A stretch of DNA of 64,000 nucleotides from Pseudomonadota bacterium (lineage in GTDB: Bacteria > Pseudomonadota > Alphaproteobacteria > Rhizobiales > MH13), in NCBI GenBank assembly GCA_039024915.1, contig JBCCPK010000001.1:558001-622000 (forward strand), written 5' to 3'. Below are positions 23,067 through 23,560 of this stretch, one piece after another. A program made the position numbers and the translations under genes. How positions within the stretch are numbered: the stretch's first letter is position 1; each line of letters begins with the position of its first letter. The notes below the pieces were generated by a model. The model had not been told where the DNA came from. It did not search any database and saw nothing but the letters and a program-made list of their open reading frames with translations.

Positions 23067-23560
23067 GAGACGTCTCCTGATGGGCCGCAGCGGCACGCTT
23101 GAGTGCCGTGGAAGCATAGATCGATCCGGTGCACATTCACGGCGAAAAAGGTCGGTGACCGCCAGCCGCTCGTGTGCAACACCTATTCCAAATGACAAGC
23201 GGCCCAAAGATGGGCCGCATGCTGCTGACTAATATTTTTTTTGATCAGCTTGTCAATTTCTAAGTCACTCTAACGACTCATGAAACCAGATTTTGTCCCT
23301 GTGTTTACCGCCACTTGTTCACCTTTTTTTAACCAGTGACTCTTGTCAGCGATTCTACCGCTAGTGTAGCTCTGAGCCTCAAGGACACGAGATATTGTGC
23401 TCCGAAGGACGCGTTACGATCCTCCAGTGATCAGTTGGATTCCGCTCATGACGCAAGCAGCATTGCGGCGTCAAATGAGGAGGGATTCGGCGAGGTTACG
23501 AGTGATTGGTAGCGTGATGATTTGGGCTGACGGCCCTGTGTGTGCGGAGGTTTATACCCG
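23067..23560. promoter_or_regulatory. argD/gcrA divergent intergenic region with a cluster of GANTC sites
   Basis: 494 bases without a convincing gene. The middle (23230-23350) is AT-rich. Five GANTC sequences lie at 23275, 23338, 23351, 23438 and 23484 (start coordinates), within 214 bases. GANTC is the CcrM methylation site through which GcrA and methylation state control transcription in alphaproteobacteria, so they probably belong to the gcrA promoter. The 3' part, up to the GGAGG ribosome-binding site at 23546, is GC-rich leader. Confidence 0.55.

Follow-up and report, generated by a model that had tools for sequence, protein, structure and literature searches.

Why should gcrA be preceded by a crowd of GANTC sites, the sites of the methyltransferase CcrM, in DNA that is otherwise poor in them? 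The question arises from a 64,000-nucleotide (nt) stretch of a Rhizobiales genome (contig JBCCPK010000001.1), hereafter the window, in which all coordinates are counted from the first letter. Rechecking the sequence confirmed exactly the five sites that an initial annotation had placed before gcrA (GACTC at 23275 and 23338; GATTC at 23351, 23438 and 23484). The sites together span 214 bp, and the start of the last is 77 bp from the gcrA ATG. We propose, with moderate confidence, that gcrA has a methylation-sensitive sigma-70-type promoter with CcrM sites around its −35 box, from which hemimethylation would trigger a pulse of GcrA.

The gcrA cluster stands out in GANTC-poor DNA

The initial annotation had put the chance expectation at about one site, in agreement with dinucleotide shuffles of the 64 kb (299.9 sites, ~1.0 per 214 bases). 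The window itself contains 51, a roughly six-fold depletion over its whole length relative to the shuffles; such depletion is known in Alphaproteobacteria (PMC3973325). At the window's real density only ~0.15 sites are expected per 214-base stretch, and because the window is itself so poor in GANTC, the cluster is more striking than initially assumed: the Poisson probability of at least five sites is 5.9e-7 per stretch, 1.8e-4 after multiplication by ~305 stretches, and still 1.5e-6 per stretch when the measured intergenic enrichment is allowed for.

A 464-kb sample of the same genome (the window plus 20 stretches of 20 kb, with 483 GANTC in all) has its densest 210 bp at the gcrA cluster, the best unrelated stretch holding four sites. 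The survey of intergenic densities that the initial annotation called for gave the same picture: among 107 called intergenic regions of at least 150 bp, more than three sites were seen at gcrA alone. On the strength of the Poisson figures and this sample comparison, we rejected chance or plain intergenic enrichment as a full account of the cluster.

Two CcrM sites bracket the predicted −35 box

The anatomy of the upstream region (Table 1) divides the cluster. The mutual distances of 23275, 23338 and 23351 are identical in three congeners, where 23438 and 23484 are gone. Treating the five as equal members of a single unit was therefore rejected: two belong to the core of the predicted promoter, one sits in the interval separating two divergent promoters, and the two in the predicted 5′ untranslated region (UTR) are missing from the three congeners. 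With 13 bp from start to start, the two core sites, 23338 and 23351, bracket the predicted gcrA −35 box TTGTCA: one adjoins its 5′ side and the other begins two bases into the predicted spacer.

Table 1. Features of the gcrA upstream region, in window coordinates
Feature	Position	Strand	Remarks
Predicted divergent promoter TTGACA-N17-ATTAGT	23228..23256	-	Of a gene that appears argD-like from its own sequence; similar in congeners
GANTC site 1 (GACTC)	23275..23279		Between predicted argD and gcrA promoters; TGAGTCG with flanks on the reverse strand; kept in 3/3 congeners
CtrA-box-like TTCACCTTTTTTTAA	23318..23332	+	1 mismatch to the CtrA-box consensus TTAA-N7-TTAA; similar block in three congeners
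GANTC site 2 (GACTC)	23338..23342		Adjoins 5′ end of predicted −35; kept in 3/3 congeners, same-family G004 and many families
Predicted −35 TTGTCA of gcrA promoter	23343..23348	+	In the anchored alignment, no columns upstream of the −10 region are better conserved than its TTG
GANTC site 3 (GATTC)	23351..23355		In −35/−10 spacer, 2 bases past −35; better conserved core site across families
Predicted −10 TAGCTC	23367..23372	+	18-bp spacer; alternative GTAGCT with 17 bp
Predicted gcrA transcription start	23380	+	Placed from geometry; 5′ UTR ~181 nt
UTR element CACGAGATATTGTG	23386..23399	+	Found by eye; relatives have ACGACATCTCGTG or ACTAGATTTCG at a like place
GANTC site 4 (GATTC)	23438..23442		Predicted 5′ UTR; absent from 3/3 congeners
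GANTC site 5 (GATTC)	23484..23488		Predicted 5′ UTR; absent from 3/3 congeners; start-proximal GANTC in many other genomes
gcrA, 176 aa	23561..24091	+	Open reading frame (ORF); PF07750, E 1.8e-50

This placement of the promoter is credible because the published start site of Sinorhizobium meliloti gcrA, at −122 from the AUG (PMC4414408), agrees with the predicted −10: the homologous hexamer of three Sinorhizobium/Ensifer loci has its end 8-9 nt ahead of −122 (the named loci of our comparison do not include S. meliloti itself). The corresponding distance in four other Rhizobiaceae-type loci is 5-12 nt, a spread to be expected if leader lengths vary from genus to genus.

The bracketed layout recurs across families

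Conservation was assessed in 80 named loci, chosen as the best among 572 confirmed ones, which with the window give 81 rows; one locus with only 129 bp upstream (L039) was left out of the enrichment and of the box and motif counts, leaving 80 rows (the window and 79 named loci). The 300 bp upstream of gcrA contain on average 4.0 GANTC, compared with a locus background of 0.40 (81 rows), corresponding to an 11.6-fold enrichment (317 observed, 27.4 expected; 80 rows), while the best control pentamer of the same structure reaches 2.1-fold. Elsewhere in the loci, called intergenic regions contain 0.48 sites per 300 bp, versus 3.96 upstream of gcrA, and on average 9% of a locus's other called intergenic regions reach its gcrA density. 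This gap tells against the idea that GANTC merely accumulates in intergenic DNA free of coding constraint and has no regulatory role, and the position and spacing fixed across families argue that it is not the whole explanation; it could still apply to sites 23438 and 23484, and for the cluster we hold the idea to be very improbable.

The arrangement GANTC-N8-GANTC is present in 61 of the 81 rows, all 61 carrying GACTCTTG at the 5′ arm, and the variable base of the spacer site is G in 56 of them, T in 4 and C in 1. We extended the comparison to 40 other genomes of the order (three congeners, one member of the same family and 36 from other families), which average 3.0 GANTC upstream of gcrA over a background of 0.33; the exact N8 pair was found in 12 of the 37 families sampled, our own included.

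To locate the promoter we used an anchor model built with the GANTC columns excluded (cut-off E<0.01), trained on 76 source sequences of which 42 were kept after near-duplicate removal, so that anchoring is partly circular for the 76. The model found an anchor in 20 of the 36 other-family genomes. In the spacer region of 17 of the 20 there is a GANTC, and 10 have the 5′ site as well. Among the 80 named loci, 61 were anchored, 54 with the spacer site and 53 with the 5′ site. Outside the training set the spacer site was recovered in 12 of 22 anchored sequences where 0.55 would be expected, "spacer" here meaning an 18-position window, with 9 of the 12 at the exact register. Conservation, whose absence the initial annotation had named as grounds for refutation, is thus observed: either both core sites or the spacer one alone recur before gcrA in numerous families, with the spacer site in 17 of the 36 other-family genomes.

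What is conserved bears on whether the pair is a methylation target at all. Read as an inverted repeat, GACTC-N8-GAGTC could be the binding site of some protein over the −35 box, with methylation incidental. At the variable base, C predominates in the upstream site (34 of 36) and G in the exact-register spacer site (33 of 43), giving a perfect dyad in most cases, and another motif, TGGGGAAAA, begins 38-40 bp ahead of the bracketed −35 pair in 36 of the 40 regions that hold both, suggesting that other factors probably act here. However, the spacer GATTC of the window and its congeners breaks the dyad yet keeps the CcrM site, and seven other-family genomes (G014, G016, G017, G027, G028, G030 and G040) lose the 5′ arm but retain the spacer GANTC; further GANTC upstream of gcrA, including start-proximal ones, are also common. 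We consider such a protein-binding repeat unlikely. In the spacer site the fixed bases carry 1.1-1.3 bits each, the variable base 0.6 and the neighbours mostly 0.1-0.5, and such prominence of the four fixed bases would follow if conservation acts on the methylation target.

The bracketed pattern is concentrated at gcrA within the order

The pattern GACTCTTGN5GANTC has a single occurrence in the 3.9-Mb genome, at gcrA. Across 199 genomes of the order it gave 86 matches in 76 genomes, compared with 14 for the reversed control (hand count). Positions of gcrA were listed for 150 of the 187 gcrA-bearing order genomes, and 13 matches belong to genomes for which none was listed; among the 73 in listed genomes, 57 sit 162-303 bp upstream of gcrA on the same strand and 16 lie elsewhere.

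Beyond the order, the pattern was found in 15 of 237 sampled genomes (16 matches; reversed control 9, hand count). Being near control level there, it was rejected as a class-wide feature. A weaker enrichment of GANTC itself extends to 27 genomes of other orders, with 1.37 sites per 300 bp upstream of gcrA versus a background of 0.43. This sample derives from 115 genomes, 57 with a gcrA match, which yielded 29 new loci, two of them dropped (one belonging to the order, one with a short upstream region); three of the remaining 27 have no clear start codon, making the upstream edge rough there.

CcrM, GcrA and the timing of gcrA transcription

The genome encodes a CcrM methyltransferase: protein P0002 contains the PF01555 methyltransferase and RAMA domains, and its best match of solved structure is CcrM 6pbd (E 1.3e-158), its score against the NF050803 CcrM model being 612.8 bits, under the curated cut-off of 830. 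The GcrA match to PF07750 spans profile positions 1-154 of 155, and its score against the NCBIfam equivalog NF050816 is 146.5 bits, under the cut-off of 280. A CcrM gene is present in 40 of 41 order genomes (own included).

Published work on Agrobacterium tumefaciens, a plant-associated relative, supplies the direction of the effect (PMC11514494). Six GANTC lie within 250 bp upstream of its gcrA, whose expression rises on CcrM depletion and falls on CcrM over-expression, and the gcrA promoter, PG, is less active when methylated, both in vivo and in Escherichia coli. The authors conclude from the E. coli effect that Alphaproteobacterial-specific regulators are not needed, and propose that gcrA is activated by transient hemimethylation. 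Conservation and, by analogy, these published results together make methylation-timed control of gcrA well supported.

The bracketed geometry fits, as we infer, a direct effect of methylation on the promoter. With both core sites fully methylated, sigma contact with the −35 region would be weakened and gcrA transcription kept low; passage of the replication fork would leave both sites hemimethylated, so that the promoter would open and release a pulse of GcrA, which late-cycle remethylation by CcrM would end. The layout thus probably lets DNA replication switch gcrA on briefly. The sites, their geometry, their conservation and the CcrM gene are established by the present analysis; from them we infer that the two core sites act as the sensor, that the organism methylates them and that transcription comes as a pulse.

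The initial annotation had suggested methylation-timed autoregulation, of which the timing is supported by conservation and the A. tumefaciens work, while the autoregulatory part is left unsupported by the E. coli effect and by the motif of the core sites. In an autoregulatory circuit, GcrA would bind the methylated sites and, with sigma-70, raise or lower its own transcription. GcrA does prefer methylated GANTC DNA and recruits RNA polymerase (PMC3667746), a GANTC in the −35/−10 spacer is a plausible place for it, and site 23275 fits, by eye, the activation motif YGAKTCG (PMC7987155) on the reverse strand. That site lies outside the core promoter, however, and the core sites 23338 and 23351 miss the motif on both strands (also by eye), the base following the spacer-site columns being G in only 7 of 59 anchored sequences. 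In addition, the A. tumefaciens promoter is repressed by methylation in E. coli, a host without GcrA (PMC11514494), and the literature passages searched, a scope that did not extend to the Caulobacter gcrA promoter papers, contain no report of gcrA autoregulation. We accordingly judge autoregulation an improbable primary explanation, if the least improbable of the alternatives weighed here; as a second layer it is possible.

Methylation might instead alter the binding of CtrA or another promoter-adjacent factor, not of RNA polymerase. The CtrA-like box at 23318-23332 ends five bases before site 2, and DnaA activates gcrA in Caulobacter (PMC4287350). Against this stand the methylation effect published for E. 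coli (PMC11514494) and the distribution of CtrA-like boxes (at most one mismatch), which are enriched upstream of gcrA (23 observed, 1.5 expected) yet less widespread than the GANTC pair, with 20 of 80 loci having such a box. The standard DnaA box is not enriched upstream of gcrA (1 observed, 1.8 expected). We regard an indirect effect of this kind as quite improbable.

Several observations weigh against a methylation-sensitive gcrA promoter, or narrow its reach. A promoter scanner using E. coli rules reports no promoter in the gcrA upstream region, and the parS-like sites and dnaA, which would give the distance from gcrA to the origin, are on a different contig. Caulobacter start sites with GANTC between −10 and −35 and those with GANTC outside show opposite timing (PMC4287350), and the gcrA promoter here carries both kinds. 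Section 25 of PMC11514494 describes no single-site mutants of the A. tumefaciens promoter. Among the 81 rows, six have no GANTC at all in the 300 bp, though CcrM is nearly universal in the order sample, and 20 lack the N8 pair. The spacer site is missing from 3 of the 20 anchored other-family genomes and 7 of the 61 anchored named loci, and the preference for GACTC at the 5′ site (34 of 36) goes beyond what methylation alone demands. With 16 of the 36 other-family genomes giving no anchor at E<0.01, the bracketed layout is widespread in the order, though perhaps not universal. Finally, among the 150 order genomes with gcrA positions listed, no more than 57 carry the exact pattern upstream, a figure that slightly tempers our confidence in the proposal.

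Relation to known methylation-controlled promoters

Methylation control of gcrA is already known, having been reported in 2024 for one species, A. tumefaciens; new here are the bracketed −35 box and its recurrence across families. PG resembles the present region in its gene, in a similar number of GANTC and in the presence of CcrM, and the region described here has the traits of the PG type, namely strong GANTC over-representation within ~250 bp and a CcrM-encoding genome. The two differ in that repression by methylation was measured for PG and is predicted here, and section 25 of PMC11514494 mentions neither a bracketed −35 box nor its conservation. A further comparison is offered by Agrobacterium larrymoorei (L030), where 300 bp contain six GANTC and where TTGTCA again stands between GACTC and GAGTC. 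It shares with the window GACTC-TTGTCA-n2-GANTC, our own criterion for a homologous promoter, drawn from that locus; its spacer site is GAGTC whereas that of the window is GATTC. Relative to PG, the predicted 5′ UTR is longer in the window (~181 nt).

Caulobacter crescentus ctrA P1 is likewise the promoter of a master cell-cycle gene that is activated when replication leaves it hemimethylated (PMC4287350), though the gene is a different one and P1 is activated by GcrA, an effect that would be hypothetical for gcrA. Methylated promoters activated by GcrA and sigma-70 (Haakonsen 2015, as quoted in PMC7987155) also combine GANTC near a sigma-70-type promoter with a CcrM/GcrA genome; unlike the core sites here they have the motif YGAKTCG, and the published sign for gcrA is repression by methylation. 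The open-access literature passages contained no description of a bracketed −35 box, which Figure S17a in the supplement of PMC11514494 may show. An earlier survey of 37 representative genomes tallied the GANTC preceding cell-cycle genes without reaching a conclusion about control (PMC2877005); its tables may hold gcrA counts.

Other upstream elements and GANTC clusters elsewhere

Just past the predicted gcrA start lies the UTR element at 23386-23399, with look-alikes in relatives. Because the small RNA EcpR1 of S. meliloti binds gcrA mRNA 13 nt downstream of its start (PMC4414408), this element may be a riboregulator target. Of the 80 regions upstream of gcrA, 52 (e.g., L016 and L027) contain the motif TGGGGAAAA in the orientation of the gene, where 0.1 would be expected; that of the window has none. 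The motif includes TGGGGA, the reverse complement of a weak type of DnaA site from Caulobacter.

GANTC clustering as such is not unique to gcrA. A search for three GANTC within at most 75 bp gave 11 matches at 10 places in the genome, the gcrA cluster not among them, and 34 matches for the reversed control pattern. One group of three sites in 38 bp (L175:1995-2032; G000:C2:459994) falls within the final part of one ORF and ~320 bp upstream of another, which matches TrcR (PF06242), a cell-cycle regulator. Another, of four sites in 45 bp (L178:2047-2091; G000:C3:252646), is flanked by an M1-peptidase-like ORF and by a small ORF on the minus strand that has no Pfam match, and a third comprises three sites in 26 bp (L179:1973-1998; G000:C4:429872) inside a 217-codon ORF adjoining an rpoN-like (sigma-54) ORF.

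Implications for the CcrM/GcrA circuit

The comparisons also point, more tentatively and at rather less than even probability, to a clock dedicated to gcrA: two CcrM sites 13 bp apart would clamp the −35 box of one promoter per genome, which would read methylation without a protein reader and convert fork passage into a timed GcrA pulse in a large part of the order. If this is true, and with GcrA reading methylation elsewhere in the genome, CcrM and GcrA would form a circuit of two layers, with the mark setting its own reader. The architecture described here gives methylation control of gcrA a precise candidate address, the two sites bracketing the −35 box and not the whole cluster, and the recurrence of this layout in many families suggests that the control is older than, and independent of, two-origin genomes. 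The gcrA promoter offers a concrete candidate for adenine methylation acting on a promoter without a dedicated reader protein.
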